From Pseudomonadota bacterium (GTDB taxonomy: Bacteria; Pseudomonadota; Gammaproteobacteria; Burkholderiales; Burkholderiaceae_C), in the NCBI GenBank assembly GCA_021815805.1, contig JAKAZQ010000025.1, forward strand, positions 1 through 48,364: a stretch of DNA of 48,364 bases, given 5' to 3'. The first letter of the stretch is position 1. Each line of letters starts with the position of its first letter. Shown one piece after another: positions 21,729 through 47,423 of this stretch. The translations under genes and the position numbers were made by a program. The notes beneath the pieces are model-generated. The model searched no databases and was not told the DNA's origin. It worked only from the letters and a program-made list of their open reading frames with translations.

Positions 21729-21876
21729 CCGTAATACCTCGACATTCGCTGTACAGGACTCTCGCCACGGCAGGCACTGCGAAAGCGGTGAAGGTCGCGT
21801 GTCGCCCGCGGGAGACGACGGTGCAGCCATGCTGCGACCCGGCCGGCACATCCTGCCGGCGCGATACGTGCGGCGC

Positions 21877-24187: not shown

Positions 24188-24194
24188 ACCGCCG

Positions 24195-29734: not shown

Positions 29735-31291
29735 ATGGAGCACCAACCGATTCGCTTCGTACACCGCGGGCGCGTGCAGGAGGTGGAAGGCCTTGCGGTC
29801 ACCACCACCGTGCTGCAATGGCTTCGCGAGCATGCCCGCTGCACCGGCACCAAGGAAGGTTGCGCCGAGGGCGACTGCGGCGCCTGCACCGTGGTCGTCG
29901 CCGAGCTGGCGCAGCCCGGCGACGCCGACACCTCGGCCGTCGCCTGCGGCGCGCTGCGGCTGCGGCCGGTCAACGCGTGCATCCGCTTCCTGCCGAGCTT
30001 GCACGGCAAGGCGCTGCTCGACGTCGAGGACCTGCGGGCGATCGGCGGCGGCGCGCCGCACCCGGTGCAACAGTCGCTGGTGGACTGCCACGGCTCGCAG
30101 TGCGGCTTCTGCACCCCCGGCTTCGCGATGAGCCTGTTCGCGGCCTACGAGCAGGCGCTGACGCGGGGGCGCGCCGCGGAGCGCCCCGAGCTGGCCGACG
30201 CGCTGGCCGGCAACCTCTGCCGCTGCACAGGCTACCGTCCGATCCTCGACGCCGCGCAGCACATGTTCGAGCTTCCGCGCGTGCGCCTGGACGCCGAGGC
30301 GCTGGAGCCGCTGCTACGCGGCATCGCCGAGCGCACCTCGGCACCGCGCATCTACGCCGCGCCGAACCTGCTGCACGATGCCGCGCGCATCGATCGCTTC
30401 CTCGCCCCGCGCGACCTCGCCGAACTGGTGCGAATGCGCCTGCGGAATCCGCGCGCCCGACTGTTCGCGGGTGCCACCGACGTCGCGCTGTGGAGCAACA
30501 AGCAGTTGCGCGACCTCGGCGACCTGCTGTGGCTGGGCGACGTCGCAGAGCTGCGGCGCATCGAAACGACCGACGGCATGCTCCGCATCGGCACCGCGGT
30601 GCCGCTGCAGGATGCCTGGGCCGCGCTTGCGCGACTGCGCCCGGAGCTGCTCGAGATGGGCTTGCGCTTCGCCGGCCCGCCGGTGCGACATGCCGGCACC
30701 CTCGGCGGCAACCTGGCCAACGGCTCGCCGATCGGTGACTCAGCGCCCGTGCTGATGGCACTCGATGCGCGACTCCTGCTGCAGCGAGGAGACGAACTGC
30801 GCGAACTCGCGCTGGATTCCTTCTACCTGGACTACATGCGCAACGAACTGCGCGAAGGCGAATTCCTGCGCGCTGTCCACGTGCCGCTTCCACGGCCGGG
30901 GCTGCTGCTCGCGGCCGAGAAGCACTCTCGCCGCTGGGACTGCGACATCTCCGCTCTCAGCCTGGGCGCCGCGCTGCGCGTCGAGCACGGCGTGGTGCGG
31001 CATGTGCGCCTGGCCTTCGGCGGGATGGCCGCCGTGGTGCGCCGCGCCGCCGCCGCCGAGGCCGAACTGCTGGGCCGCGGTTGGGAGCAAGACGCGGTGC
31101 GCCGCGCGATGCACGCACTGGAGAATGACTTCCAGCCGCTCGACGACCTGCGCGCCAGCAAAGGCCACCGCATGCGCGTGGCGCGCAACTGGCTGTGGCG
31201 ACTGTGGCTGCAATGGCGCGAGCACGACCCCTTGCCGGCAAGCTCGCTGCGCGTGCGCGAGGTCCGCGAGGAAATGGGGGCGATGGGATGA
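29735..31291 (+). CDS. xdhA: Xanthine dehydrogenase small subunit (FeS and FAD domains)
   Basis: A 518-residue subunit. The plant-type [2Fe-2S] domain has Cys43, Cys48 and Cys51 in EGCAEGDCGACTV. The second [2Fe-2S] domain has QCGFCTPGF and GNLCRCTGYRPIL. The FAD domain follows from about residue 195 with LFAGATDVALW and GTLGGNLANGSPIGDSAPV. This is the bacterial XdhA that moves electrons from the molybdenum subunit to NAD. The ATG at 29735 has GAGG 8 nt upstream. Its TGA overlaps the xdhB ATG. Confidence 0.95.
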   Translation: MEHQPIRFVHRGRVQEVEGLAVTTTVLQWLREHARCTGTKEGCAEGDCGACTVVVAELAQPGDADTSAVACGALRLRPVNACIRFLPSLHGKALLDVEDLRAIGGGAPHPVQQSLVDCHGSQCGFCTPGFAMSLFAAYEQALTRGRAAERPELADALAGNLCRCTGYRPILDAAQHMFELPRVRLDAEALEPLLRGIAERTSAPRIYAAPNLLHDAARIDRFLAPRDLAELVRMRLRNPRARLFAGATDVALWSNKQLRDLGDLLWLGDVAELRRIETTDGMLRIGTAVPLQDAWAALARLRPELLEMGLRFAGPPVRHAGTLGGNLANGSPIGDSAPVLMALDARLLLQRGDELRELALDSFYLDYMRNELREGEFLRAVHVPLPRPGLLLAAEKHSRRWDCDISALSLGAALRVEHGVVRHVRLAFGGMAAVVRRAAAAEAELLGRGWEQDAVRRAMHALENDFQPLDDLRASKGHRMRVARNWLWRLWLQWREHDPLPASSLRVREVREEMGAMG

Positions 31292-33615
31292 ACCAGCGAC
31301 TTCCCGACGCCGCGGTGGTGGGCCTGAGCGCACCGCACGAGTCAGCGCACCTGCACGTAGCCGGCGCCGCCGCCTACACAGACGACCTGGCGCAGGTCGA
31401 GGGCACTCTGCACGCCGCCCTAGGACTGTCGCCGCTGGCACATGGACGACTGCTCGAGGTCGACCTGGAACGCCTGCGCGCGCAGCCCGGGGTGGTCGGC
31501 GTGTACTGCGCGCGCGACATTCCTGGACGCAACGACTGCGGTCCGGTCGTGCACGATGATCCGGTGCTTGCCGAAGGCACACTGCGCTACCTTGGCCAGC
31601 CGGTGTTCGTGGTCGTCGCCGAGCAGCGCGAGCAGGCACGACGCGCGGCCGCGCTGGCGCGAGAGGTGATTCGTGCGCAGGAACTTCCGGCTGTCCTCGA
31701 GGCGCGGCAGGCCCACGCGCTTGGCCAGTACGTGCTCGAACCCGTGCACCTGCTGCGCGAGAGTTCCCCCGGTGCGCTGGAACGTGCGCTTGATCAGGCG
31801 CCGCACCGCCTGCGAGGAAGCTGGTCGGTGGGTGGCCAAGAGCAGTTCTATCTCGAAGGCCAGATCGCCTGCGCGCAGCCGCGCTCCGACGGCACGATGG
31901 CCGTGCTCAGCTCGACCCAGCACCCCACGGAAATGCAGCATGTGGTCGCGGCGCTGCTGGATTGCCCGCTACATGCGGTGCAGGTCGAGTGCCGGCGCAT
32001 GGGCGGAGGGTTCGGCGGCAAGGAGTCGCAGTCAGCGGTGTTCGCCTGCTGCGCCGCTCTGGCCGCGAAAAAGCTGGGGCACGCGGTGAAGCTGCGTGTC
32101 GACCGCGACGACGACATGCTGATTACCGGTCGCCGCCACGGTTTCGACTACGACTGGGACATCGGCTTCGACGAGCTCGGACACCTGCTCGGCTGCGAGG
32201 TCACGCTGATCGCCAACGCCGGCCACTCGGCCGACCTGTCGGGGCCGGTGATGACCCGCGCGCTGTGCCACCTGGACAACGCCTACTACCTTCCCGAGGT
32301 GGCGATGCACGGGTACTGCGCACGCACTAACACCCAAAGCAACACCGCGTTCCGCGGCTTCGGCGGCCCCCAAGGCGCGTTGCTCATGGAGTACCTGCTC
32401 GACACCATCGCACGCCATCTGGGTCTCGAGGCGTTGCAGGTACGGCGCGCGAACTTCTACACCCCCCTGCGCCAAGAGACTCCCTACGGCCAGCCGGTGG
32501 GTGAGGTGCTCATCGAGGACATGGTGGAGCGCCTCGTGCGCGACGCCGACTATGCCGAGCGGCGCGCCGCCATTGCCGCCTTCAACCGTGACAACCCGGT
32601 GCTAAAGAAGGGCCTTGCGCTGACGCCCGTGAAGTTCGGGATCTCCTTCAACGTCCCGCACTTCAACCAGGCGGGCGCGCTGGTGCACGTATACACCGAC
32701 GGCAGCGTGCTGGTGAACCACGGCGGCACGGAGATGGGGCAAGGGCTCAACACCAAGGTGGCGCAGGTGGTGGCCGACGCCCTGGGCATCACTGTCGGGC
32801 ATGTGCGGTGCACCGCCACCGACACCACCAAGGTGGCCAACACGTCGGCCACCGCGGCGTCCACCGGCGCGGACCTCAACGGCATGGCCGCGCTGGACGC
32901 CGCGATGCGCATTCGCGCGCGTCTGGAGGGGGTGGCAGCGCGCCACTTCGACTGCGAGCCCGGACAGGTCCGCTTCGACGGCGGGAGCGCACACGTCGGC
33001 GCCTCCAGCCTGGCCTTCCACGATCTCGTGGCGCTGGCCTACCGTCAGCGCGTGCAACTCTGGAGCGACGGGTTCTATGCCACACCAGGATTGCACTGGG
33101 ATCCGCAAGCGCTGCGCGGAAGCCCCTTCTACTACTTCGCATGGGGCGCCGCCGTCAGCGAGGTGGTGCTGGACACCTTAACCGGCGAATGGCGCCTGTT
33201 GCGCGCCGACCTGCTGCAGGACGCCGGTCGGTCGCTGAACCCGGCGATCGACATCGGGCAAGTCGAGGGAGCATTCATCCAGGGCATGGGCTGGTTGACC
33301 ATGGAGAAGCTCGTATGGCATCCCCGCAGCGGCGCGCTCCTGACCCATGCGCCGAGCACCTACAAGATTCCCACGGCCAACGACTGTCCGCCGGACTTGC
33401 GCTGCGCGCTGTTCGACCGGCCCAATTCTCAGCCCACGGTGCATCGCTCGAAGGCGGTGGGCGAGCCTCCACTGCTCCTAGCCTTCTCCGTGCTGTTCGC
33501 TCTGCGCGACGCGGTTGCCGCGCTCTCCGAGGGACGTGTCAATCCCCCATTGGCGGCGCCGGCGACCGCCGAGGCACTGCTCGACGCGATCGATGCCGTG
33601 CGTGCCGCGGGCTGA
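31288..33615 (+). CDS. xdhB: Xanthine dehydrogenase large subunit (molybdenum cofactor)
   Basis: A 775-residue Mo-cofactor subunit oxidising hypoxanthine/xanthine to urate. Landmarks in order are GAAAYTDDLAQVEGTLHAAL near the N-terminus, GQEQFYLEGQIA, the cofactor-binding RRMGGGFGGKESQ, TAFRGFGGPQGALL, GGTEMGQGLNTKVAQV, and the catalytic glutamate region VHRSKAVGEPPLLLA at the C-terminal side. The ATG at 31288 overlaps the xdhA stop (ATGA); the longer frame starts inside xdhA. Length is standard for split bacterial XDH. Confidence 0.95.
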   Translation: MNQRLPDAAVVGLSAPHESAHLHVAGAAAYTDDLAQVEGTLHAALGLSPLAHGRLLEVDLERLRAQPGVVGVYCARDIPGRNDCGPVVHDDPVLAEGTLRYLGQPVFVVVAEQREQARRAAALAREVIRAQELPAVLEARQAHALGQYVLEPVHLLRESSPGALERALDQAPHRLRGSWSVGGQEQFYLEGQIACAQPRSDGTMAVLSSTQHPTEMQHVVAALLDCPLHAVQVECRRMGGGFGGKESQSAVFACCAALAAKKLGHAVKLRVDRDDDMLITGRRHGFDYDWDIGFDELGHLLGCEVTLIANAGHSADLSGPVMTRALCHLDNAYYLPEVAMHGYCARTNTQSNTAFRGFGGPQGALLMEYLLDTIARHLGLEALQVRRANFYTPLRQETPYGQPVGEVLIEDMVERLVRDADYAERRAAIAAFNRDNPVLKKGLALTPVKFGISFNVPHFNQAGALVHVYTDGSVLVNHGGTEMGQGLNTKVAQVVADALGITVGHVRCTATDTTKVANTSATAASTGADLNGMAALDAAMRIRARLEGVAARHFDCEPGQVRFDGGSAHVGASSLAFHDLVALAYRQRVQLWSDGFYATPGLHWDPQALRGSPFYYFAWGAAVSEVVLDTLTGEWRLLRADLLQDAGRSLNPAIDIGQVEGAFIQGMGWLTMEKLVWHPRSGALLTHAPSTYKIPTANDCPPDLRCALFDRPNSQPTVHRSKAVGEPPLLLAFSVLFALRDAVAALSEGRVNPPLAAPATAEALLDAIDAVRAAG

Positions 33616-33622
33616 GCACGCC

Positions 33623-34471
33623 ATGTGTTACGTACGCGTCATGGTCACGACGACATACGGCTCCACGCCGCGCGAGGCGGGAGTGTCCATGCTTGTCAGC
33701 GAAGCCGGCGTCGAGGGCACCATCGGTGGCGGACAACTCGAGTGGCAGGCCATAGCCACCGCGCGGCGCCTGCTGGCGCAGTGGGGACCGCAGCCATCGC
33801 CCTCGGACGTCGAACACCGCGAACGCCTGGCCCTGGGGCCGGCGCTGGGTCAGTGCTGCGGCGGCGCGGTGGAACTGGCCTACACACCCTGCCCCTTGCC
33901 CGCGCCCGCGCACCAGCCGTCGCTATTCTTCCTGCAACTGCATGGGGCCGGCCACGTCGGGCGCGCCCTGGTGCGCCTGCTGCGCACGTTGCCCTGCGAG
34001 GTGCAGTGGATCGACGAGCGCGAGAACGCCTTCGCAGCATCGACGGATCACGGCGGACCTGCGCGGATCGAGTACATCACCGCCGACATGCCGCAGGCCG
34101 AGGTAGCGGTGGCGCCCGCGGGTGCCTTTTATCTCGCCATGACCCACCGGCACGATCTGGACTTCGCCATCGGAACCGAAGTCCTGCGCCGTGCCGACCA
34201 TGGGTGGTTGGGTTGCATTGGCTCGCTAACCAAGCGCGGGCGCTTCGTGCACCGTTGGACCGCGAGGGGAATGGATCCGCGCGCCCTGGAGGACTTCGCC
34301 TGCCCGGTGGGTGTCGACTCCATTCCGGGCAAGTCCCCGGAGTGCATCGCGGTAGCCGTGTGCGCGCAGCTGCTTCAGGTGGCGGGGCGGCGTGCCGCGC
34401 CGTCGGCCGAATCCTCGGCGCGCCATCGAGACATTGATCACGGGAAACCCAGACACCCACGATCGGCGTAG
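33623..34471 (+). CDS. xdhC: Xanthine dehydrogenase accessory protein
   Basis: A 282-residue XdhC protein that binds molybdenum cofactor and inserts it, after sulfuration, into XdhB. Visible family motifs are the N-terminal GSTPREAGVSMLV and GTIGGGQLEWQA, then LGQCCGGAVELA with the cofactor-associated cysteines, a Rossmann segment LHGAGHVGRALVRLL and the C-terminal GCIGSLTKRGRF. It starts 7 nt after xdhB. The alternative ATG at 33641 would remove six residues. The last 30 residues are variable. Confidence 0.93.
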   Translation: MCYVRVMVTTTYGSTPREAGVSMLVSEAGVEGTIGGGQLEWQAIATARRLLAQWGPQPSPSDVEHRERLALGPALGQCCGGAVELAYTPCPLPAPAHQPSLFFLQLHGAGHVGRALVRLLRTLPCEVQWIDERENAFAASTDHGGPARIEYITADMPQAEVAVAPAGAFYLAMTHRHDLDFAIGTEVLRRADHGWLGCIGSLTKRGRFVHRWTARGMDPRALEDFACPVGVDSIPGKSPECIAVAVCAQLLQVAGRRAAPSAESSARHRDIDHGKPRHPRSA

Positions 34472-35085: not shown

Positions 35086-35742
35086 TCAGAACTCGACTTC
35101 CAGGTCATCGATTTCCTCCTTCTCCCCCAGTGCCGCGGCAGTCCATTCACCCATTTCGGGCATCTCGAGCACGGTGCGCTTGTAGGCTTCGCTGGCGGCG
35201 TCGAGTGACACGTCGTAGGTGGCGAAGCGCGTGGCCACCGGCGCATAGATCGCATCGGCCATGCCTCTGCGCTCGCCGAACAGGAACGGTCCACCGTAAC
35301 GCTGCAGGCAATCGTTCCAGATCGACGTGATGCGCTCTATGTCGGCTAGCGCGCGGCTCCAGACGGTGAAACCGGGGAAATGCGCGCGCAGGTTCATCGG
35401 CATGGAACTGCGAAGATTCGTGAACCCCGCGTGCATCTCACCGCAGATCGAGCGGCAATGCGCGCGCGCGGCGCGCGCGCTCGGGAGCAGTCCGGCTTTC
35501 GGGCGCAGCTCGTGCAGGAATTCCCCGATCGCCAGGACGTCCCAGACTTCGACGCCGTCATGCCGCAGGCAGGGCACGAGCATCGAGGGGGCCAGAAGCA
35601 GGAGTTCCTGCCGGTAAGTGGGATCCTCGGGTGCCACCGTGCATTCGTCGAAGTCGATGCCGGCGAAGCGCGCAAGCAGCCAACCGCGCAGCGACCACGA
35701 GGAATAGTTCTTGCTGCTGATGATCAACGTTGTCTTGGCCAT
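35086..35742 (-). CDS. Glutathione S-transferase family protein
   Basis: A 218-residue cytosolic GST. The N-terminal thioredoxin-like domain starts MAKTTLIISSKNYSSWSLRG, with a serine-rich segment where the glutathione-activating residue lies in many bacterial classes, and continues with SMLVPCLRHDGVEVWDVLAI. The all-helical C-terminal domain holds GPFLFGERRGMADAIYAPV, the typical N-capping segment. I chose the ATG at 35742; the long upstream frame is the antisense of phaZ. It is divergent from phaZ. The substrate is unknown, with detoxification or a glutathione-dependent step possible. Confidence 0.88.
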   Translation of the reverse strand: MAKTTLIISSKNYSSWSLRGWLLARFAGIDFDECTVAPEDPTYRQELLLLAPSMLVPCLRHDGVEVWDVLAIGEFLHELRPKAGLLPSARAARAHCRSICGEMHAGFTNLRSSMPMNLRAHFPGFTVWSRALADIERITSIWNDCLQRYGGPFLFGERRGMADAIYAPVATRFATYDVSLDAASEAYKRTVLEMPEMGEWTAAALGEKEEIDDLEVEF

Positions 35743-35856
35743 GTCGCACCCCATCGCGCCCCTTGCACACCGATCCGAAGCAAGCCACATGCCACCGAAG
35801 CGTGGCTCGGATCTTGCTGGTTGGTGCAGGCATCCGTTGCCACGGGAGGTTCCGCC

Positions 35857-37056
35857 ATGTTGTACGCAGGCTATCAACTGCAGTCGGATCTGCTCGGTCC
35901 CGCGCTGTGGGCAGCGCACAGCACCGCGCAGTGGCTGGGAGCCGGCCCTCGGGCGCTGCGCATCGCGGGGGCTTGGCTGGAGACCTGCGCGCTGACGCGG
36001 GTGCGGCACCGCAGGCCTGAGTTCGGTATCGAGCGCGTGTCGCAGGACGGCCACGACGTCACGGTCAGCGAGTTGGCGCACGCGCACACACCGTTTTGTA
36101 CCCTGCTGCATTTCCGCAAGGACACATCGAGGCCGGGACCGCGCGTGCTGCTGGTGGCGCCGATGTCGGGGCATTTCTCGACCCTGCTTCGAGATACCGT
36201 GCGCACCTTGCTCGGGGACCACGATGTCTACCTGACCGACTGGCACAACGCGCGCGACGTGCCGCTGCGCGAGGGCCCATTCGGGGTCGACGAATACGTC
36301 GCCCACCTGATGGACTTCCTGCGCGTGCTCGGCCCTGGAACCCACCTGATGGCCGTGTGTCAGCCTTGCGTGCAGGCCCTGGCGGCGACCGCGCTGCTGG
36401 CCGAGGAGCATGACCCGGCCACGCCGTCCAGCCTGGTGTTGATGGCCGGCCCCATCGATTGCCGCATCCGGCCGACCGGGGTCAATCGCCTGGCCAACGA
36501 GCGCCCGATCGAATGGTTCGAGCGCAGCCTCGTCGACGTCGTGCCGCCCCGGTTGCGCGGGGCAGGGCGCGAGGTCTATCCCGGATACGTGCAGCTCGCT
36601 GCTTTCGTGAGCATGAACGGCGAGCGCCACCAGGGTATGGTTCTGGCTTACTTCAAGGCGCTGGCCGATGGCGACACGGCGCGCGCGGACGCGATCCGGG
36701 ACTTCTACCGCGAGTACTGCTCGGTGTCCGACCTGCCGGCCGAGTTCTATCTGGAAACCGTGCGCCGTGTGTTCCAGCAGCACGAACTGGCGCGCGGGCG
36801 CTGGACGTGGCGCGGCCGCGCGCTACGCCCCGCGGCGATCCGTCGCACCGCGCTGATGACCGTCGAGGGCGAGCGCGATGACATTTGCGCCTTTGGCCAG
36901 ACACTGGCCGCGCAGGACCTGTGCCCGAATATCCCGCCTTTCCTGCGAAGTCACTGGCTGCAGCCGGGCGTGGGCCATTACGGCGTGTTCAGCGGAAAGC
37001 GCTGGCAGCAGAGGATCTACCCCATGGTGCGCAGTCTGATCCACGCCGCCGATTGA
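35857..37056 (+). CDS. phaZ: Intracellular polyhydroxybutyrate depolymerase
   Basis: A 399-residue alpha/beta hydrolase-like enzyme mobilising intracellular PHB granules. It begins MLYAGYQLQSDLLGPAL and has the family nucleophile cysteine in MAVCQP (Cys168) instead of a lipase-box serine. Asp341 in EGERDD and His374 in GVGHYGVFSG complete the triad with the spacing seen in PhaZa1-type depolymerases. VDEYVAHLMDFLRVLGPGTH is also typical. GGGAGG stands 9 nt before the ATG at 35857. It indicates that the host stores PHB. Nothing ties it by operon to its neighbours. Confidence 0.93.
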   Translation: MLYAGYQLQSDLLGPALWAAHSTAQWLGAGPRALRIAGAWLETCALTRVRHRRPEFGIERVSQDGHDVTVSELAHAHTPFCTLLHFRKDTSRPGPRVLLVAPMSGHFSTLLRDTVRTLLGDHDVYLTDWHNARDVPLREGPFGVDEYVAHLMDFLRVLGPGTHLMAVCQPCVQALAATALLAEEHDPATPSSLVLMAGPIDCRIRPTGVNRLANERPIEWFERSLVDVVPPRLRGAGREVYPGYVQLAAFVSMNGERHQGMVLAYFKALADGDTARADAIRDFYREYCSVSDLPAEFYLETVRRVFQQHELARGRWTWRGRALRPAAIRRTALMTVEGERDDICAFGQTLAAQDLCPNIPPFLRSHWLQPGVGHYGVFSGKRWQQRIYPMVRSLIHAAD

Positions 37057-37306
37057 AGTCAGAAAGTGACGGGCGTCAGATCCACATCAACGGCGAGGTG
37101 CGATTGGTGTCAGAACTGCGGATTTTCGTGAGCATCTGCCGCAAACCACTCCCTTCGGGAGCATCCGCAGCGCGCGACCGGCAGCGATCGGTGTCTTGTC
37201 AATGCGCGCCTTTCGCGCTTCATCACCGCTTGCCGCCAGAGCGCAGACCGCAGGCCGTACACGCTTCATCCGCGCACACCTTTTGTTGCCGTTGCGCGTG
37301 CATCTG

Positions 37307-37325
37307 GCGCACCAATTTGATGCGC
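37307..37325. promoter_or_regulatory. NtrC-like palindrome
   Basis: GCGCACCAATTTGATGCGC has 9-bp arms with one mismatch around a single central base. Its core resembles NtrC sites of the GCACC-N5-GGTGC type with one mismatch. It is centred about 75 nt upstream of the start predicted from the sigma-54-like promoter at 37365-37379, the usual side for an activator. Confidence 0.5.
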
Positions 37326-37364
37326 TTTGATCAATCCTCCCGTTGGTGGATCCGGAAGTTGATC

Positions 37365-37379
37365 TGGACTGGAAATTGC
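37365..37379 (+). promoter_or_regulatory. Sigma-54-like -24/-12 promoter for the ATP-grasp operon
   Basis: TGGACTGGAAATTGCTT, with GG at 37366-37367 and GC at 37378-37379, 10 nt apart. The -12 element TTGCTT is perfect, and the -24 element keeps TGG and the G at the seventh position. The predicted start is near 37391, 47 nt before the ATG at 37438. The 381-nt stretch 37057-37437 contains this, the palindrome and no gene. Confidence 0.55.
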
Positions 37380-37437
37380 TTCTTGCCGTGCGCCCACCAC
37401 CCGACAATATGACAGGCAGTTTGCACGCGAGGCGGCC

Positions 37438-38859
37438 ATGCGTAATTTCGATGAAATGAACCAGCCAAGCGGCGCGGTGCGCACCCACTACGCCAGGTAT
37501 GACCACTGGCTGCGCCAGCAGCCGCTGGATGCGATGCAGTCCAAGCGCGAGGAGGCCGAGCAGATCTTCCGGCGCGTGGGGATCACCTTCGCGGTGTATG
37601 GCGACGAGGCGGGAACCGAGCGCCTGATTCCATTCGATCTCATCCCACGCATCATTCCTGCAACCGAATGGGCGTCGCTGGAGGCAGGGCTCGTGCAGCG
37701 GGTGACTGCGCTGAACCGCTTCATCCACGACGTCTACCACGAGCAGGACATCATGCGTGCGGGTATCGTGCCGCGCGACCTGGTGCTGGGCAACAGGCAG
37801 TTCCGGCCCGAGATGATGGGCGTGCACGTTCCCAACCAGATTTACGCCCATATCGCCGGCATCGATGTCGTGCGCGCTGGGAACGTCGCGGGCGAGGGGC
37901 ACTACTACGTGCTGGAAGACAACCTGCGCGTGCCCTCGGGGGTGAGCTACATGCTGGAGAACCGGCGCATGATGATGCGGCTGTTCCCTGACCTTTTTTC
38001 GCATTACGCGATCGCCCCGGTGGCACGGTATCCCGACATGCTGCTGGAAAAGCTGCGCGACGTGGCTCCGCAAAGCGCCAGCGATCCCACGGTCGTGGTG
38101 CTGACCCCCGGCATGTACAACTCGGCGTATTTCGAACATGCGTTCCTGGCCCAGCAGATGGGGGTGGAACTCGTCGAGGGGCAGGACCTTTTCGTGCGCG
38201 ACAACTTCGTGTACATGCGCACCACCCAGGGCCCGCAGCGCGTGGACGTGATCTATCGCCGTATCGATGACGACTTCATCGACCCGGACGTGTTCCGCGC
38301 CGACTCGGCCCTGGGTTGCGCCGGGCTCATGGCGGCCTATCGCGCCGGGAATGTGACGCTGGCCAACGCGGTGGGCACGGGCGTGGCCGACGACAAATCG
38401 ATCTACCCCTACGTGCCGGCAATGATCGAGTTCTACCTGGGCGAAAAGCCCCTCCTGCACAACGTGCATACGTATGTGTGCCGTGACCCGCAAGACCTGG
38501 AGTACGTGCTGGCGCATCTGCCGGAACTGGTCGTCAAGGAGGTGCACGGCGCCGGCGGCTACGGCATGCTTGTCGGCCCGGCGTCGACGCATGCGCAGAT
38601 CGCCGCCTTTGCCGACAAGCTGCGCGCCCATCCGGAGCACTACATCGCGCAACCCACTCTGGCGCTGTCCACTTGCCCGACCTACGTGGATTCGGGCATC
38701 GCGCCGCGGCATATCGACCTGAGGCCCTTCGTGCTGTCAGGCAAGAGCGTGGCCATCGCCCCCGGCGGATTGACCCGTGTAGCGCTGACCGAGGGTTCGC
38801 TTGTGGTCAATTCCTCGCAAGGTGGCGGCACCAAGGACACTTGGGTGCTGGAGAGCTGA
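37438..38859 (+). CDS. Circularly permuted ATP-grasp type 2 protein
   Basis: A 473-residue ligase-like protein of the CP_ATPgrasp family (DUF404/DUF407 type). Landmarks are FAVYGDEAGTERLIPFDLIP, VTALNRFIHDVYHEQDIM, YVLEDNLRVPSGVSYMLENR, LTPGMYNSAYFEHAFLA and LVVKEVHGAGGYGML, where the lysine and glycine-rich loop contribute to nucleotide binding. By family the fold activates a carboxylate with ATP to make an amide or peptide-like bond. No physiological product is established. It is the first gene of a five-gene operon; the next gene encodes the partner alpha-E protein. It was chosen from 37438 because the ATG lies just after the predicted leader. Confidence 0.92.
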   Translation: MRNFDEMNQPSGAVRTHYARYDHWLRQQPLDAMQSKREEAEQIFRRVGITFAVYGDEAGTERLIPFDLIPRIIPATEWASLEAGLVQRVTALNRFIHDVYHEQDIMRAGIVPRDLVLGNRQFRPEMMGVHVPNQIYAHIAGIDVVRAGNVAGEGHYYVLEDNLRVPSGVSYMLENRRMMMRLFPDLFSHYAIAPVARYPDMLLEKLRDVAPQSASDPTVVVLTPGMYNSAYFEHAFLAQQMGVELVEGQDLFVRDNFVYMRTTQGPQRVDVIYRRIDDDFIDPDVFRADSALGCAGLMAAYRAGNVTLANAVGTGVADDKSIYPYVPAMIEFYLGEKPLLHNVHTYVCRDPQDLEYVLAHLPELVVKEVHGAGGYGMLVGPASTHAQIAAFADKLRAHPEHYIAQPTLALSTCPTYVDSGIAPRHIDLRPFVLSGKSVAIAPGGLTRVALTEGSLVVNSSQGGGTKDTWVLES

Positions 38860-38900
38860 CCGCGCGCCGGCTCACGATGGGATCACGAGGGAACTTTGCC

Positions 38901-39851
38901 ATGCTCAGCCGGACCGCCGATCACCTCTTCTGGATGGCGCGCTACACGGAGCGCGCCGAGAACACGGCGCGCATGCTCGACGCGCACGTGCAGTCGGCGC
39001 TGCTGCAGCCCTCGGCCCTGGCGACTGGCGAGGGCTGGGCCGGCGTGCTGGGCATCTCCGAGCTCACCGGCGCCTATCGCGCGCGCCACGGCGATGTCAG
39101 CGCCGAAAAGGTACTCGAGTTCATGGTGCGCGACAACGCCAACCCCTCGTCCATCTGCAGCTGCCTGCACGCCGCGCGGGAGAACGCGCGGGCGGTGCGA
39201 GGGGCCATCACGACGGAGGCATGGGAGACCGTCAACCAGACCTGGCTGGAGTTGCCGCGCATCGCCACCGAGCGAGTGATTCAGCGTGCCCCTGGCGTGC
39301 TGTTCGAGTGGGTCAAGCATCGCTCGCACCTGCTGCGCGGCGTCACGTCGGGCACGATGCTGCGCGACGAGGCCTTTCACTTCCTGCGCATCGGTACCGT
39401 GCTGGAGCGCGCCGACAACACGGCGCGCCTGCTCGACGTCAAGTTCCATGCGCGCGCTTCGGACTTCCACGGTTCATCGGGCCAGCGCGGCCAGGAGCAG
39501 GACTTCTATCACTGGGCTGGAGTGTTGCGCTCGGTGTCGGGCTTCGAGGTGTATCGCAAGATCTACCGCGAAGCCATCACGCCCGAGCGCGTGGCCGAGA
39601 TGCTGATCCTGCGCACCAGCATGCCGCGCTCGCTGGCGGCGTGCATGGCCGAGATCGTGAGCGATCTGGTGAAGGTCGCGCACCCCCAATCGGCCGAGAC
39701 GCTGCGCCGTGCCGGGCTGCTCAACGCCCAGCTGCAGTTCGGCCGCATCGAGGACATCATGGCCACCGGACTGCACGCCTGGCTGACCGACTTCCTGACG
39801 CGCGTCAACGCGTTGGGGAGCGATATCAGCCAGGACTTCCTCGCCGCCTGA
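38901..39851 (+). CDS. Alpha-E domain protein
   Basis: A 316-residue all-helical protein of the alpha-E family. It opens MLSRTADHLFWMARYTERAENTARMLD-like (quoted: MLSRTADHLFWMARYTERAE) and contains WVKHRSHLLRGVTSGTMLRD and IGTVLERADNTARLLD, showing a pseudo-repeat of the ER/AD-NTAR motif. Alpha-E proteins always accompany circularly permuted ATP-grasp and transglutaminase-like proteins; their role is unknown. I chose the ATG at 38901, the normal family start with GAGGG upstream; an ATG at 38877 is also in frame. A fused homologue is present at the C-terminus of the protein from 43319. Confidence 0.9.
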   Translation: MLSRTADHLFWMARYTERAENTARMLDAHVQSALLQPSALATGEGWAGVLGISELTGAYRARHGDVSAEKVLEFMVRDNANPSSICSCLHAARENARAVRGAITTEAWETVNQTWLELPRIATERVIQRAPGVLFEWVKHRSHLLRGVTSGTMLRDEAFHFLRIGTVLERADNTARLLDVKFHARASDFHGSSGQRGQEQDFYHWAGVLRSVSGFEVYRKIYREAITPERVAEMLILRTSMPRSLAACMAEIVSDLVKVAHPQSAETLRRAGLLNAQLQFGRIEDIMATGLHAWLTDFLTRVNALGSDISQDFLAA

Positions 39852-39928
39852 TCCGCAGCCGGCGGCCGGTACGCCAGCCGGGGCCGCCGTGACGTTTGCC
39901 GTTCGCCTCACTTCCGCCAAGGTGCCAC

Positions 39929-42900
39929 ATGTCCATCCACGTCGCCCTTCATCACGTCACGCGCTATCGCTTCGACCGCGCGGTGAACCTTGCCCCGCAC
40001 GTCATTCGGCTTCGCCCTGCGCCGCATGCCCGTACACCGATTCTGTCCTACAGCCAGCGCATCGAGCCTGCCGGGCATTTCATCAACTGGCAGCAGGACC
40101 CCTTCGCCAACTACCTGGCGCGCGTGACGTTCCCGGAACCGTCCACGGCGCTCGAGATCACCGTGGACATGGTGGCCGAGATGTCGGTGTACAACCCCTT
40201 CGACTTCTTTCTCGAGCCGGCGGCCGAACGCTTCGGCTTCCGCTACGACGCGCAGCTTGAGGCCGACCTCGCCCCCTACCTGGCATGTGCGCCGCTGACT
40301 CCGCGCCTGCGCGAGCTGGTCGACAGCATAGAGCGCAGACCGAGGCCCATGGTCGATTTCCTGGTCGATCTGAACCAGCGCCTGCAGCGCGACATCGCCT
40401 ACGTGATCCGCATGGAGCCGGGGGTGCAGACCCCCGAGCAGACCCTGACGCTGCGCTCGGGTTCCTGCCGTGACTCGGGCTGGTTGCTGGTGGAATTGCT
40501 GCGCCACCTCGGGCTGGCCGCGCGGTTCGTGTCCGGGTACCTCATCCAGCTCGTGCCCGATGTCAAGGCGCTCGACGGCCCGGTCGGCGCCGATCGCGAC
40601 TTCACCGACCTGCACGCCTGGTGCGAGGTCTATCTGCCCGGTGCCGGCTGGATCGGGCTCGACCCGACCTCGGGGCTGCTGGCGGGTGAAGGGCACATTC
40701 CGCTGGCCTGCACGCCGCAGCCAGCCTCGGCGGCGCCGGTGGAGGGCCTGCTCGACGATTGCGAGGTGGCGTTCGAGCACAGCATGGAGGTCACGCGTCT
40801 GCTGCAGTCACCGCGTGTGACCAAGCCATACACCGAAGCGCAATGGCAGGGCGTGCTCGAACTGGGCGCGCAGGTGGACCGCCGGCTGCACGACGGGGAC
40901 GTGCGCCTGACACAAGGCGGGGAGCCCACCTTCGTCGCCATCGTCGACCGCGACGCCCCGGAGTGGAACACCGATGCGCTGGGCCCCACCAAGCGCGGCT
41001 ACGCCGGCGAACTGCTGCAGCGGCTGGCGCGACGCTACGGCCCCGGCGGTTTCCTGCATTATGGCCAGGGCAAATGGTATCCGGGCGAGCAGCTGCCGCG
41101 CTGGGCGCTCTCGGCGGTGTGGCGCCGCGACGGCCAGCCCTGCTGGCACGACCCCTCGCTGTTCGCCGACGAGCGTGCGCCCGGCAGCTGCGACACCGCG
41201 CAGGCGCGCCTGTTCATGCTGGGCCTTGTCGATGCGCTGGCGGTCGAACCTGCGCATGTCTGCGAGGGCTACGAGGACACCTGGTACTACCTGTGGCGCG
41301 AGCGGCGACTGCCCGTCAACGTGGATCCCTTCGATTCCCGCCTGGACGACGAGCTCGAACGCCAGCGCCTGCGCCGCGTGTTCGAGCGCGGGCTGCGCAG
41401 CCCCGTGGGCTACGCGCTGCCGCTGCGGCGCGACGCGGGCGAGCCCGTGCTGCGCGGCAGCCGCTGGGTCTCCGGGCCCTGGTTCTTCCGCGACGAGCGC
41501 ATGTACCTCGTGCCGGGGGATTCGGCCATGGGCTGGCGCCTGCCGCTCGACTCCCTGCCCTGGACGCAGGAGTCGGAGCGCGCGATCGACCTGCCGCCCG
41601 ACCCCTTCGCGCCGCGAACGCCGCTGGCTGCGGCCGCCCGGCTGCGTGCGCAGTACGCCACGTCGGCTGCGTCGGCCGGGCCGGGTGCCGCCGCGACGCC
41701 GACGCAGCCCGCGGCGCGCGGCGCGGAGGTGGCACCCGACGCCCCGGGCGTGCCGGCGCGCGGCCGCTCCGCCGCCGGCGTGGTGCGCACCGCGCTGTGC
41801 GTAGAGGCGCGCGGCGGCGTGCTGTACGTGTTCATGCCGCCGCTGGCCAGCGCGGACGACTACCTGGACCTGCTGGCCGCGGTGGAGTCGACGGCGCAGC
41901 GCCTGCGTCAGCGCCTGGTGCTCGAGGGCTACCCGCCGCCGCGCGATCCGCGCCTCAACCTGCTGCAGGTCACGCCCGATCCGGGGGTCATCGAGGTCAA
42001 CATCCACCCGGCGCACGACTGGCACGAACTCGTCGACCACACCGAGTTCCTCTACCAGGCCGCGTTCGAGACTCGCCTGGGCGCGGAGAAGTTCATGCTC
42101 GACGGGCGGCATACCGGAACGGGGGGCGGCAACCACGTGGTGCTGGGGGCCGCCACGCCCGCCGACAGCCCCTTCCTGCGCCGCCCCGACCTGCTGGCCA
42201 GCCTGCTCGCATACTGGCACAACCACCCGTCGCTGAGCTACTTGTTCAGCGGCCTGTTCATCGGCCCGAGCAGCCAGGCTCCGCGGGTCGACGAGGCCCG
42301 CAACGACCAGCTGCGCGAGCTCGAGATCGCGCTGGGCGAGCTGCGCGCGGCGGTGCGCCGCGAAGGCTCCCAGGTCGCCCCGTGGCTGGTCGATCGCAGC
42401 TTGCGCAACATCCTCGTCGACGTGACCGGCAACACCCATCGCGCCGAGTTCTGCATCGACAAGCTCTACAGCCCGGACAGCTCCACCGGCCGACTCGGGC
42501 TGCTGGAATTGCGCGCCTTCGAGATGCCTCCCCACGCGCGCATGAGCGTGGTGCAGCAGCTGCTGCTGCGCGCGCTGGTCGCGCGCTTCTGGGAGCAGCC
42601 CTACCACGCGCCGCTGCAGCGCTGGGGCACCGCGCTGCACGATCGCTTCCTGCTGCCGAGTTTCCTCCGCATGGACTTCGACGACGTGCTGCTCGAGCTC
42701 GGCGAAGCCGGCTTCGCGTTCGACGCCACGTGGTTCGCACCGCACTTCGAGTTTCGCTTCCCGCAGCTGGGCGAGTTCACCGCCGCCGGCATGCGCGTGG
42801 AGCTGCGCATGGCCCTGGAGCCCTGGCACGTGATGGGCGAGGAGGTGGCCTCCGGCGGAAACGTGCGCTACGTGGACTCGTCGCTGGAGCGCATCGAGGT

Positions 42901-43297
42901 CAAGGTCACCGGCCTGGCCGACAGCCGGCACGTGCTCACCGTCAACGGTCACGCACTGCCGCTGCAACCCACCGCGCGATCCGGGGAATTCGTGGGCGGC
43001 GTGCGGTATCGCGCGTGGCTGCCCGCGTCGGCGCTGCACCCGAGCATCGGCGTGCACGCTCCGCTGACTTTCGACGTCGTCGACAACTGGCTGCAGCGCT
43101 CGCTGGGGGGCTGTCAGTATTTCGTCGCGCACCCGGGCGGGCGTAACTACGCGACCTTCCCGGTGAATGCCTACGAGGCGGAGAGCCGGCGCCTGGCGCG
43201 GTTCTTCCGCATGGGGCACACGCCCGGGCGCATGCGGGTCGCGCCGGTGCAACCGAGCCTGGAGTTCCCGTTCACCCTGGACCTGCGTCGCGCCTGA
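39929..43297 (+). CDS. Transglutaminase-like domain fused to DUF2126
   Basis: A 1122-residue cytoplasmic protein. Residues 1-290 are a bacterial transglutaminase-like cysteine peptidase domain with N-terminal region (MSIHVALHHVTRYRFDRAVN). Its catalytic Cys180 is in RSGSCRDS, His229 in DLHAWCEV and Asp245 in GLDPTSG. From about residue 300 to the end is DUF2126, with LTQGGEPTFVAIVDRDAPEW, FMLDGRHTGTGGGNHVVLG and NLLQVTPDPGVIEVNIHP; this part has features of a GCS2/ATP-dependent ligase-like domain according to published family analysis. An Ala/Pro-rich linker lies near residues 575-625. The length is usual for the family. Predicted role: cleaving or forming isopeptide-like bonds in an unknown product. 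Confidence 0.9.
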   Translation: MSIHVALHHVTRYRFDRAVNLAPHVIRLRPAPHARTPILSYSQRIEPAGHFINWQQDPFANYLARVTFPEPSTALEITVDMVAEMSVYNPFDFFLEPAAERFGFRYDAQLEADLAPYLACAPLTPRLRELVDSIERRPRPMVDFLVDLNQRLQRDIAYVIRMEPGVQTPEQTLTLRSGSCRDSGWLLVELLRHLGLAARFVSGYLIQLVPDVKALDGPVGADRDFTDLHAWCEVYLPGAGWIGLDPTSGLLAGEGHIPLACTPQPASAAPVEGLLDDCEVAFEHSMEVTRLLQSPRVTKPYTEAQWQGVLELGAQVDRRLHDGDVRLTQGGEPTFVAIVDRDAPEWNTDALGPTKRGYAGELLQRLARRYGPGGFLHYGQGKWYPGEQLPRWALSAVWRRDGQPCWHDPSLFADERAPGSCDTAQARLFMLGLVDALAVEPAHVCEGYEDTWYYLWRERRLPVNVDPFDSRLDDELERQRLRRVFERGLRSPVGYALPLRRDAGEPVLRGSRWVSGPWFFRDERMYLVPGDSAMGWRLPLDSLPWTQESERAIDLPPDPFAPRTPLAAAARLRAQYATSAASAGPGAAATPTQPAARGAEVAPDAPGVPARGRSAAGVVRTALCVEARGGVLYVFMPPLASADDYLDLLAAVESTAQRLRQRLVLEGYPPPRDPRLNLLQVTPDPGVIEVNIHPAHDWHELVDHTEFLYQAAFETRLGAEKFMLDGRHTGTGGGNHVVLGAATPADSPFLRRPDLLASLLAYWHNHPSLSYLFSGLFIGPSSQAPRVDEARNDQLRELEIALGELRAAVRREGSQVAPWLVDRSLRNILVDVTGNTHRAEFCIDKLYSPDSSTGRLGLLELRAFEMPPHARMSVVQQLLLRALVARFWEQPYHAPLQRWGTALHDRFLLPSFLRMDFDDVLLELGEAGFAFDATWFAPHFEFRFPQLGEFTAAGMRVELRMALEPWHVMGEEVASGGNVRYVDSSLERIEVKVTGLADSRHVLTVNGHALPLQPTARSGEFVGGVRYRAWLPASALHPSIGVHAPLTFDVVDNWLQRSLGGCQYFVAHPGGRNYATFPVNAYEAESRRLARFFRMGHTPGRMRVAPVQPSLEFPFTLDLRRA

Positions 43298-43318
43298 CAC
43301 GGCGTGTCACAATCGCGC

Positions 43319-45871
43319 ATGGCCAGCCTTTTCCCCTCGGCAGCGGGCGACACCCACGGCGCGCTGGCGCGCGACCTGGCGGCGCCGGCACGCGCCGGGC
43401 ACTGGGACGAACTGCGCGGCCGCGTCTCCGACGGCCAGCCGGGCGCGCGCCTGGCGCCATACTGGGAGCGCTTCTTCGACCTGCTCGGCGCCGACGGCTT
43501 CGACGGCCTCGAGCGCCGGCAGCGCACGCTGCAGCAGCAGATCCTCGACGACGGCGTCACCTACAACGTGCACGACGACACCGGGCAGGCCAGCCGCAGC
43601 TGGGCGCTGGACCTGTTTCCGCTGATCGTCGACGGGCAGTCCTGGTCGCGCATCGCCTCCGGGGTGGCGCAGCGCGCGGCGCTGCTCAACGCGGTGCTCG
43701 AGGACGTGTACTGCGGCTCCCACCGCGTGTTGCGCGACGGGCTGCTGCCGGCGCAGCTCGTGCAGGGCCATCCTGGCTACCTGCGCCCGCTGCTCGGCCA
43801 CCGGCCGGCCGGCAATGTGTGGCTGAACATCGCCGCGTTCGACCTGGCGCGCGGCCCGGATGGCGACTGGCGCGTCGTCAACCAGCGCGTGCAGGCACCT
43901 TCCGGGCTGGGCTATCTGCTGGAGAACCGCCTGCTGATCTCGCGCCTGTTCCCGCAGGCCTTCGCCGCGCTGCGCGTGCAGCGCCTCGCCGCGAGCTACC
44001 GCCAGCTGATGGACACCGTGCAGGCGCTATCGCCCGGTGGGGCCGATGCGCGCATCGTGCTGCTCACCCCCGGGCCCTACAGCGAAACGTATTTCGAGCA
44101 GGTGTACCTGGCGCGCTACCTTGGGATCACGCTGGCCGAGGGCAGCGACCTGACCGTGCGCGAGGACCGCCTGTTCCTGAAGACCGTGCGCGGCCTGGAG
44201 CCGGTGCACGCGGTGCTTAGGCGCTTGGACGACGGTTTCTGCGATCCCCTCGAGCTGCGCCCGGACTCCATGCTCGGGGTTCCGGGGCTGCTGCAGGCCG
44301 TGCGTGCCGGCAACGTGCTGTTGGCCAATGCGCTGGGCGCGGGCTTCCTGGAGTCTCCCGCGGTGCAGGGTTTCCTGCCCAAACTGTGCGAGGCCTTGCG
44401 GGGGGAACCCCTGCAGATGCCCTCGCTGCCCACGTGGTGGTGCGGCGAGCCGGGAGTGTGCGAGGCCCCGCTGCAGCGCCTGCAGGAATGGGTGGTCAAG
44501 CCGGTGGATGCCGATTGCGGCTTCGATGCCACTGTGATGGCCGGGCTAGGCGCTGCGGAGCTCGGCACCTGGCGCGAGCGCGTGCGCCACAGGCTGGAAC
44601 AGGTCACGCTCCAGCGCTACCTGCCGCTGCCGCAGGTTCCGGTGTGGCAAGAGGGTCGCATGCATGCGCGTGCCGCGATGCTGCGCGTGTTCGCGCTGGC
44701 CGACGGCGACGGCCGCTGGCGGGTGCTGCCCGGCGGGTTGGTGCGCACGGCTTCGCGAAGCGCGAACACGGTGTCGATGCGCTACGGCGGCAGCAGCCAG
44801 GATGCCTGGGTGATCACCGGCGATGCTGTCGATCGCTCCACCCTGCTGCCGGCTCCGATGCGCCCGCAGGACCTGCTCGAGCGTCACCGCGTGGTGACCA
44901 GCCGGGCCGCGGAGAACCTGTTCTGGCTCGGGCGCTACTGCGAGCGCGCCGAGTACGCCACCCAGCTGGCGCGCCTGACCTTGCGCGCGGTCACCGACGA
45001 CGACCTGGTCGGCGGGTACGCCGGCATGCTCGACGCCTGGTGCCGCAATGCCGGCCTGGTGCTGGCAGACGCTCCGCCGCTGGCCGACGATGCGGGGGAG
45101 TTCGTGCGCCGGATCGTGGACGGCCTGGGCGGCGACACCTCGCCGTTCGGCCTGCCCCACAACCTGCGGGCCATGGGCCGCGCCGCCGCGCAGGTGCGCG
45201 AGCGTCTGGGCAGCGATCACCGGCAATGGATCGCCTCGGCCACCGCGCTGCGTCTGGCACCGGTCGCGGGTGGCCGCGGCGCGCCCGGGGTCGGCGAGGC
45301 GCTGCGCGGCCTGGAGCGTCTGGCCGAGGTGCTGGGCGCGATGACCGGCGCGCAGACCGACCGCATGACCCGCGACGACGGCTGGCGCCTGCTTAGCATC
45401 GGGCGGCACATCGAACGCCTCGGGCTGTTCGGGCAATCGCTCGGCATCGCCTTCGAGACCGGCGCGGTGCATGCCGAGAACGCCTTCAACCAGGTGCTTG
45501 AGCTGTTCGACAGCACCATCACCTACCGCGCGCTCTACCAGAAGCGCCTGGAGGTTCCGCCGCTGCTCGACCTGCTGATGCTTGACCGCGAGAACCCGCG
45601 CAGCCTGGGTTGGGTGACGCAGACGCTGCGCGCGCGCCTGGCCAGGCTGCCGGGGCAGCCCGCCGACATCGAACAGCTCGTCGCGCTGGCTCCCGACCCC
45701 GAGGCATGGCAGCTCGCCGAGCTGTGCCTGTGCGGCGCCGACCGTCGCCACGCCTGGCTGGAGCGCTCGCTCGAGCAGGCGGTGCAGGCCGCCTGGCGCC
45801 TGGCCGACGAGATCAGCCGGCGCTATTTTGCGCATGCCGGCGCGCCCGATCGCTCGCTGGGTGGGTACTGA
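43319..45871 (+). CDS. Circularly permuted ATP-grasp - alpha-E fusion protein
   Basis: An 850-residue fusion. Residues about 1-485 are a circularly permuted ATP-grasp domain (LQQQILDDGVTYNVHDDTGQ, LLTPGPYSETYFEQVYLARY, YGGSSQDAWVITGD). Residues about 525-850 are an alpha-E domain (AENLFWLGRYCERAEYATQL, LSIGRHIERLGLFGQSLGI). It duplicates in one chain the pair encoded separately at 37438 and 38901, but with low similarity, so the two ligase systems probably have different substrates or act in sequence. The ATG at 43319 is preferred to a GTG at 43304. It begins 21 nt after the preceding gene and is followed 11 nt later by the last operon gene. Confidence 0.9.
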   Translation: MASLFPSAAGDTHGALARDLAAPARAGHWDELRGRVSDGQPGARLAPYWERFFDLLGADGFDGLERRQRTLQQQILDDGVTYNVHDDTGQASRSWALDLFPLIVDGQSWSRIASGVAQRAALLNAVLEDVYCGSHRVLRDGLLPAQLVQGHPGYLRPLLGHRPAGNVWLNIAAFDLARGPDGDWRVVNQRVQAPSGLGYLLENRLLISRLFPQAFAALRVQRLAASYRQLMDTVQALSPGGADARIVLLTPGPYSETYFEQVYLARYLGITLAEGSDLTVREDRLFLKTVRGLEPVHAVLRRLDDGFCDPLELRPDSMLGVPGLLQAVRAGNVLLANALGAGFLESPAVQGFLPKLCEALRGEPLQMPSLPTWWCGEPGVCEAPLQRLQEWVVKPVDADCGFDATVMAGLGAAELGTWRERVRHRLEQVTLQRYLPLPQVPVWQEGRMHARAAMLRVFALADGDGRWRVLPGGLVRTASRSANTVSMRYGGSSQDAWVITGDAVDRSTLLPAPMRPQDLLERHRVVTSRAAENLFWLGRYCERAEYATQLARLTLRAVTDDDLVGGYAGMLDAWCRNAGLVLADAPPLADDAGEFVRRIVDGLGGDTSPFGLPHNLRAMGRAAAQVRERLGSDHRQWIASATALRLAPVAGGRGAPGVGEALRGLERLAEVLGAMTGAQTDRMTRDDGWRLLSIGRHIERLGLFGQSLGIAFETGAVHAENAFNQVLELFDSTITYRALYQKRLEVPPLLDLLMLDRENPRSLGWVTQTLRARLARLPGQPADIEQLVALAPDPEAWQLAELCLCGADRRHAWLERSLEQAVQAAWRLADEISRRYFAHAGAPDRSLGGY

Positions 45872-45882
45872 GCCGCGCCGCC

Positions 45883-46794
45883 ATGGACCCCAGCGTGCAT
45901 GCCCAGGCCGCCGGCGTGCTGTACCGCGTCGAGCACCTCACGCGCTATGTCTACGCGGCGCCGGTGGAGCTGGCGCACCACCTGGCGCAGCTGCGCCCGC
46001 TGAGCCTCGAGCCGCTGCAGCAGTGCGAGCAGCATCGCTGCGACATCGAGCCTGCGCCCGGGCATCGCAGCAGCAGCACTGACGTGTTTGGCAACCAGCG
46101 CCTGTTCTTCGCCTGCTACGCGCCGCACGACACGCTGAGCGTGCGCGCGGTCAGCCTGGTGCGCGTGCACGCGCCGCCGCCCCGGTGGGAGCACAGCCCG
46201 GCGTGGGAGAGCGTGCGCGAGCGGCTGCAGTATCGACCCGGGCAGGCCTACGAGCCGGCCTCGGAGTTCACCTTCGGCAGCCATTTCGCGCCGCGTTTCG
46301 AGGATGCCGCGAGCTACGCCGGCGCCGATTTCACGCCCGGGCGCTCGCTGCTCGACGCCGCGCACGCGCTGATGCACCGCCTGCACGCCGAGTTCACCTA
46401 CGACCCCGCGAGCACCGAAGTGCACACCCGCGCCCCGCAGGCCCTGCAGCTTCGGCACGGCGTGTGCCAGGACTACGCGCATGTGATGATCTCGGCGCTG
46501 CGCAGCCTGGGGCTTGCGGCCCGTTACGTCAGTGGCTACCTGCGCTCGTGTCCGCGTCCGGGCGAGGAACGGCTGGTGGGTGCCGACGCCTCGCACGCGT
46601 GGGTGGCGGTCTGGTGCCTGGAGCACGGCTGGGTCGAGTTCGACCCCACCAACGACCGACTCCCCGCGGCCGACTACGTGCGCGTGGCCGTGGGGCGCGA
46701 CTTCGCCGACGTCTCCCCCTTGCGCGGGGTGATCCGGGGCGGCGGCGAGCACGAGCTCCAGGTGGCGGTGAACGTCAGCCCGGCGCAGATCTGA
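45883..46794 (+). CDS. Transglutaminase-like cysteine peptidase
   Basis: A 303-residue protein with an N-terminal beta domain (VLYRVEHLTRYVYAAPVELA) and a transglutaminase-like core. The catalytic triad is Cys195 (HGVCQDYAH), His238 (DASHAWVAVW) and Asp254 (FDPTNDRL). Members of this family are predicted proteases or peptidyl-bond-forming enzymes. It ends the operon of ATP-grasp, alpha-E, transglutaminase-DUF2126 and the fusion protein, and gives the operon a second, smaller transglutaminase-like enzyme. There is no signal peptide, so it acts in the cytoplasm. Confidence 0.9.
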   Translation: MDPSVHAQAAGVLYRVEHLTRYVYAAPVELAHHLAQLRPLSLEPLQQCEQHRCDIEPAPGHRSSSTDVFGNQRLFFACYAPHDTLSVRAVSLVRVHAPPPRWEHSPAWESVRERLQYRPGQAYEPASEFTFGSHFAPRFEDAASYAGADFTPGRSLLDAAHALMHRLHAEFTYDPASTEVHTRAPQALQLRHGVCQDYAHVMISALRSLGLAARYVSGYLRSCPRPGEERLVGADASHAWVAVWCLEHGWVEFDPTNDRLPAADYVRVAVGRDFADVSPLRGVIRGGGEHELQVAVNVSPAQI

Positions 46795-47316: not shown

Positions 47317-47331
47317 TGGTCCGCGGTTTGC
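47317..47331 (+). promoter_or_regulatory. Sigma-54-like -24/-12 promoter for cynS
   Basis: TGGTCCGCGGTTTGCTT, with GG at 47318-47319 and GC at 47330-47331, 10 nt apart. It keeps TGG, the CG at positions 6-7 and a perfect TTGCTT. The predicted start is near 47343, about 81 nt before the cynS ATG. The stretch 47138-47423 otherwise holds no gene. Confidence 0.5.
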
Positions 47332-47423
47332 TTGCCCGTGTGGGAAGCCGGACCGCGCGGGCGGCACCTGATGTCGCACCGCACGGTCGGCACCGTACTT
47401 TGCAACCAGAAGGAGTGCCCGAG

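Follow-up and report, generated by a model that had tools for sequence, protein, structure and literature searches.

A sigma-54 promoter preceded by an NtrC-type site probably controls a five-gene operon (37438-46794) in the genome of a Burkholderiales bacterium, so that the region 37307-37381 would act as an NtrC-activated promoter that turns the operon on when nitrogen is short. The DNA analysed here, called the window, spans an entire contig (48,364 nt) from a 3.1 Mb genome assembled in 71 contigs (Table 1). A preliminary description had pointed to a 19-bp near-perfect palindrome at 37307-37325, to a sigma-54 element at 37365-37381 and to a distance of about 75 nt between the palindrome and the transcription start. 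The sequences and coordinates of both elements proved exact, with 8/9 arm pairs in the palindrome and GG-N10-GC in the promoter, and the palindrome centre (37316) does lie about 75 nt upstream of the start predicted from the promoter element (~37391). Both elements fall inside the intergenic region 37057-37437, past the stop codon of a PHB depolymerase gene at 37056, and are oriented towards the operon. The 17-bp core of the NtrC-type site (CGCACC-AATTT-GATGCG, 37308-37324) is one mismatch from YGCACC-N5-GGTGCR and stands 57 nt before the -24 element; counted from the predicted start, the operon leader would be about 47 nt long. We searched with consensus sequences for NtrC sites and sigma-54 promoters, and scored sigma-54 elements with weights of our own (maximum 16 points, GG and GC obligatory).

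Table 1. Coordinates and supporting matches of features in the window
Feature	Coordinates	Strand	Basis or remarks
NtrC-type binding site (predicted)	37307..37325	+	19-bp imperfect palindrome GCGCACCAATTTGATGCGC, 8/9 arm pairs complementary
Sigma-54 promoter, -24/-12 element (predicted)	37365..37381	+	TGGACTGGAAATTGCTT; GG 37366-37367, GC 37378-37379, ten bases between
Transcription start (inferred)	37391	+	~12 nt past the -12 GC; from element position
Circularly permuted type 2 ATP-grasp protein, 473 aa (first gene)	37438..38859	+	PF14403 E=1.9e-168, PF04174; start codon ATG
Alpha-E protein, 316 aa	38901..39851	+	PF04168 E=2.5e-98; start codon assigned by inspection
Large transglutaminase-like protein with DUF2126 putative amidoligase domain	39929..43297	+	PF08379, PF01841, PF09899
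ATP-grasp/alpha-E fusion, 855 aa	43304..45871	+	PF14403, PF04174, PF04168
Small transglutaminase-like protein	45883..46794	+	PF08379, PF01841; Cys, His, Asp motifs
Allophanate hydrolase	5061-6863		
Bmp-type ABC transporter	about 15.5-20.5 kb		
Urate oxidase	20520-21851		
OHCU decarboxylase with M20 peptidase	24174-25970		
Xanthine dehydrogenase genes	29735-34471		

In NtrBC systems generally, low nitrogen makes NtrB phosphorylate NtrC. In the source organism, NtrB would likewise phosphorylate NtrC at low nitrogen, and NtrC would bind the palindrome, whose centre is ~75 nt upstream of the start. DNA looping would then let NtrC drive open-complex formation by sigma-54 RNA polymerase at the -24/-12 element, yielding a single mRNA of ~9.4 kb. 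We infer NtrC binding, the start site, operon-wide transcription and the nitrogen response of the source organism from sequence.

Neither element alone exceeds chance expectation within the window. Across the whole window there are 98 matches to the sigma-54 pattern with up to 3 mismatches (99.7 expected), and the site at 37307-37325 is one of 24 palindromic 19-mers with at least 8/9 pairs and one of five sites within 1 mismatch of YGCACC-N5-GGTGCR. The joint architecture, defined as a site with at most 1 mismatch placed 30-130 nt before a sigma-54 element scoring at least 13/16, was found twice, against a mean of 0.2 and a maximum of 3 in 40 Markov resamples; the second match (2912, minus strand) falls within long ORFs. 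The promoter is convincing because it is conserved, not because of local window statistics. No sigma-70-type match was found in 37000-37500, which says little because only 0.1 was expected by chance.

Conservation was assessed in 134 upstream regions drawn from the best matches listed (80 kept from one search and up to 30 from each of the others). These comprised 121 orthologues (at least 70% identity) and 13 paralogues, which were counted apart; removing one orthologue with less than 300 nt of upstream DNA and 18 near-duplicates left 102 non-redundant orthologues. Among these listed matches, 99/102 had a GG-N10-GC element scoring at least 13/16 no more than 200 nt from the start, and the median distance from element to start was 46 nt. 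The aligned consensus of the orthologues reads TGGC(C/G)(C/T)G-N4-TTGCTA. In the redundant set we took the top-scoring element of each region with 200 nt or more of DNA, searching as far as 600 nt upstream; it scored at least 13 within the nearest 200 nt in 124/133 regions, compared with 304/2680 random 200-nt windows from the same loci. The element occurs in all 13 non-redundant orthologues of the same genus and is also kept by orthologues preceded by other genes. The nearest named relatives, among the matches listed, are Thiomonas and other Burkholderiales. The orthologue comparison settles the predicted sigma-54 promoter; the NtrC site is patchier.

A free dyad search returned several enriched dyads, many of whose matches fell inside the conserved coding sequence of an upstream ComEC-type gene. 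We therefore redid the NtrC-site count in intergenic DNA, and an initial count of 35/102 was set aside in favour of this recount. The canonical form TGCACC-N5-GGTGCA, with at most 2 mismatches, was found in 14/102 orthologues (2.9 expected) when upstream coding DNA was included. Among the 36 orthologues that belong to neither of the two large groups defined by a common neighbouring gene, sites with at most 1 mismatch occurred in 7 (0.41 expected) and with at most 2 in 14 (3.2 expected), counts that are not probabilities because related genomes are not independent. Three of these 36 lack usable intergenic DNA, and the set includes all 13 members of the genus, which supply 3 of the sites with at most 1 mismatch and 4 of those with at most 2. 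Within the genus, 4/13 non-redundant orthologues have a site with at most 2 mismatches (1.2 expected), and the other 9/13 have none 30-180 nt before the -24 element.

The sister locus (L048), whose protein is 94% identical to that of the window, carries an NtrC-type site, TGCACC-AAGTT-GATGCA, that retains both the position and the symmetry of the window site. The site is 14/17 identical between the two and the sigma-54 promoter 16/17, whereas the flanks diverge (spacer 17/40 identical, 60 nt upstream 21/60). The outer palindrome pair changes from C..G in the window to T..A in the sister, a paired change at both ends. Another genome (G013) holds two first-gene orthologues, L020 (94% identical) and L042 (88%), with an NtrC-type site only at L020; L042, which is the same DNA as L049, has no NtrC site within four mismatches. 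The alignment across Burkholderiales that the preliminary description called for bore out the -24/-12 element in 99/102 of the listed non-redundant orthologues and the palindrome in part: it shows an excess in open upstream DNA and a footprint in the sister, but is missing from 9/13 orthologues of the genus and mostly lacks room where a ComEC-type gene abuts.

A shared gene abuts 66/102 orthologues, in 53 cases a ComEC-type competence gene (two examples were scanned, and both matched PF03772) and in 13 another shared ORF. The ComEC-type gene ends directly before the operon in those 53 of 102 orthologues (e.g. L117 and L092), and in ten of the 53, with the start codons that we chose, it overlaps the operon by 1-4 nt. 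The sigma-54 element is kept in 50/53 of the orthologues with an abutting ComEC-type gene. Less than 20 nt of intergenic DNA precedes the -24 element in 37/66 of all abutted orthologues, and 3/66 have a site with at most 2 mismatches, each 21 nt before the -24 element, which is too close for a usual enhancer.

The genome encodes the proteins that such a promoter would use. It has a single rpoN (L197) and 13 matches to PF00158, 10 of them full-strength sigma-54 activators, L157 being the only one of these ten above the ntrC cut-offs (687 vs 558.6 and 642 vs 620 bits). In 15 of the 28 genomes of the genus we compared the DNA upstream of glnK, and found a site without mismatch to YGCACC-N5-GGTGCR in 8/15, as CGCACC-N5-GGTGCG in 6/15. 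In the window's own genome (L198), three strong NtrC sites precede an outer-membrane-type gene, glnK and amtB (the first and last named by eye). This glnK-amtB promoter resembles that of the window in having NtrC sites upstream of a sigma-54 element, but has three sites of the canonical TGCACC form, the nearest of them 78 rather than 57 nt before -24. At P-II loci, nearly all of them glnB, the 400 nt upstream held no NtrC site better than 3 mismatches (28/30 loci parsed).

A genome-wide scan for the joint architecture returned 11 places, including glnK-amtB, nirB and the window operon, and a backward control returned 0. We take these three as promoters because of the genes that they precede. 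The other eight lie inside long open frames; this alone does not set them apart, since long frames span the glnK and window places as well. At L245:213-306 (contig C61), TGCACC-N5-AGTGCG and the sigma-54 element TGGCATGCCATTTGCT precede the nirB-type gene. Because L245 ends inside this gene, its match to TIGR02374 (480 bits, positions 1-438 of 794) falls short of the 578 bits set for the whole model.

The window operon brings together ATP-grasp, alpha-E and transglutaminase genes, as do Anbu-type operons. It fits a DUF2126-type, shared with Caballeronia (L221) and Burkholderia cenocepacia (L235), in which a DUF2126 gene, the fusion and the small transglutaminase follow the ATP-grasp and alpha-E genes. 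The large transglutaminase-like ORF was listed from TTG 39896, and we judged ATG 39929 the likelier start; in its product, simple patterns detected only the Cys motif. The five genes occur in the same order in four relatives' loci (L216-L219) and in Caballeronia, where a metallopeptidase gene on the other strand separates the second and third. A tblastn search of the whole window with the genome's own Anbu protein found no Anbu gene at E<=1e-3, nor did the relatives' loci L216-L219 give a match at E<=1e-8.

An Anbu-type paralogue is present elsewhere in the genome (L213:5750-9017, contig C45). Like the window operon, it has ATP-grasp and alpha-E genes, a sigma-54 element and an NtrC-type site. 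It differs in its Anbu-like gene, in having no DUF2126 match in 16 kb and in its first gene, which is 61% identical to that of the window. The Anbu-like gene matches PF00227 just under the cut-off and is 81-82% identical to genes in L214 and L215 and 46% to that in L220. All 13 paralogues compared within the genus (not deduplicated) have a sigma-54 element of at least 14 points within 52 nt of the start. An NtrC-type site with at most 2 mismatches precedes 13/13 of these not deduplicated paralogues (1.7 expected), and one with at most 1 mismatch precedes 10/13 (0.3 expected).

Published expression data from B. cenocepacia H111 bear on this type of operon. There, I35_5080-5083, annotated as DUF404/DUF407, DUF403, transglutaminase-like and large transglutaminase-like genes, changed by -8.2, -9.4, -9.4 and -6.0 fold in an ntrC mutant by RNA-seq, and I35_5080-83 (BCAM1233-1236) are named among the common sigma-54 and NtrC targets (PMC5491218). 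The cluster shares with the window its ATP-grasp (DUF404/407), alpha-E (DUF403), transglutaminase and large transglutaminase genes (PMC5491218). In the one B. cenocepacia record that we searched (NZ_CP091013.1, 3.2 Mb), there are three related clusters (L220, L235 and L236), of which only L235 has a DUF2126 gene, 72-73% identical to that of the window. L235 carries a perfect NtrC site, TGCACCGTTGTGGTGCG, 80 nt before a 15-point sigma-54 element, AGGCACGTTCCTTGCA, and it continues with genes for an ATP-grasp/alpha-E fusion and a transglutaminase. It differs from the window in an extra small transglutaminase gene between the alpha-E and large transglutaminase genes, in the distance of the NtrC site from -24 (80 vs 57 nt) and in a first gene that is 60-61% identical. 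We match L235 to I35_5080-83 by gene content and order rather than by the H111 sequence. The same scan of 500 nt upstream of the Anbu-type clusters L220 and L236 found no comparable pair of elements. The first gene of L220 is 69% identical to that of the window, vs 60-61% for L235, and our confidence in an NtrC-activated promoter is lower because the B. cenocepacia cluster closest in its first gene is without one.

In the Caballeronia locus (first gene 72.5% identical), a sigma-54 element of 14 points lies 274 nt upstream of the start that we chose, and a one-mismatch NtrC-type site lies 81 nt before that element, in an annotated hypothetical gene. In Sinorhizobium (L222), the upstream scan found neither element. 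A further comparison is the Anbu operon of Pseudomonas putida, PP_2685-2688, in which we take PP_2687 to be the alpha-E protein. Like the window operon it has circularly permuted ATP-grasp, alpha-E and transglutaminase genes, and it is induced by nitrogen limitation (PMC8050072; PMC7801951); it differs in its Anbu proteasome-like gene and, in the four-gene form described, has no DUF2126 gene. The PP_2688 promoter gave a 3.7-fold response to nitrogen depletion, and the PP_2685 and glnK promoters gave none in the same reporter assay (PMC8050072). In an rpoN mutant, nitrogen limitation still raised the expression of PP_2686-2688 by 14- to 20-fold, and urtABCD rose too (PMC7801951).

Much of the window is a nitrogen-scavenging island (Table 1), which also holds XdhC, two GntR regulators and amidohydrolases. 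This is what would be expected under NtrC control, and it backs co-regulation without proving it. Directly upstream of the operon lies the PHB depolymerase gene (35380-37056; PF06850, TIGR01849). The stretch 47317-47867, just downstream, comprises a cyanate lyase gene and its own sigma-54-like element, TGGTCCGCGGTTTGCT (at 47317), which follows two-mismatch NtrC-like sites at distances of 53 and 127 nt. Further sigma-54-like elements with 15/16 points lie near ABC transporter or permease ORFs, at 9822, 2083 (minus strand) and 2180 (plus strand).

How firmly can NtrC itself be assigned to this promoter? The sigma-54 promoter could be real and yet be activated by another enhancer-binding protein, at least in many lineages, with the palindrome its site or incidental. 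The genome does have ten full-strength sigma-54 activators, the NtrC-type site is missing in 9/13 genus orthologues that all keep the sigma-54 element, and few of the genomes with an abutting ComEC-type gene have room for an NtrC site although 50/53 retain the promoter. However, the window site differs from the genus glnK form by no more than one base, NtrC-type sites are in excess over the 36 informative orthologues, the B. cenocepacia genes depend on NtrC (PMC5491218), and the neighbourhood is one of nitrogen scavenging. We consider a different activator unlikely. It is much less probable that both elements are chance matches and that transcription of the operon comes from a vegetative promoter or from the upstream PHB depolymerase gene: the single-site statistics in the window are unremarkable, but the element is conserved near the start in 99/102 orthologues among the matches listed.

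An NtrC site could also repress here, or serve the PHB depolymerase gene rather than the operon, and PHB depolymerase and glutathione transferase genes are indeed NtrC-dependent in B. cenocepacia (PMC5491218). Yet the site and promoter lie past the depolymerase stop and point to the operon, and the sigma-54 element is kept where other genes precede the orthologues, which makes this arrangement very improbable. An NtrC-activated sigma-54 promoter remains our preferred reading. The sigma-54 conservation, the partial conservation of the NtrC site and the B. cenocepacia precedent indicate that the nitrogen-activated promoter of the preliminary description was right in kind and probably in detail. 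NtrC/sigma-54 regulation is already on record in relatives, and its mode is ordinary, not a new kind of switch.

What the operon makes can be approached through its domains, which predict peptide or amide ligation; the related Anbu operon has been predicted to act in peptide synthesis, tagging or turnover (excerpts of PMC6376114 and PMC5666114), and a search for DUF2126 in the literature at our disposal found no paper. The enzymes might form amide or isopeptide bonds that serve in tagging, storage or recycling; the preliminary description had suggested a nitrogen-rich peptide-like product. The promoter finding places the operon beside purine, cyanate and nitrite use, and a sigma-54 promoter with an NtrC site, in several lineages at least, suggests looking for the product under nitrogen starvation. 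More speculatively, the DUF2126-type operon may have become fixed in the nitrogen-starvation response across Burkholderiaceae, its sigma-54 promoter being kept even behind an abutting ComEC-type gene that leaves no intergenic space for an NtrC site, where the enhancer would be in the competence gene or some other activator would have replaced NtrC; the enzymes could then form a starvation-induced amide-bond system that stores or salvages nitrogen. We regard this as possible, if rather doubtful. The first-gene family also extends to a 173-kb plasmid of Klebsiella pneumoniae, which carries a 63% identical ATP-grasp gene (NZ_CP084831.1:111890-113278).
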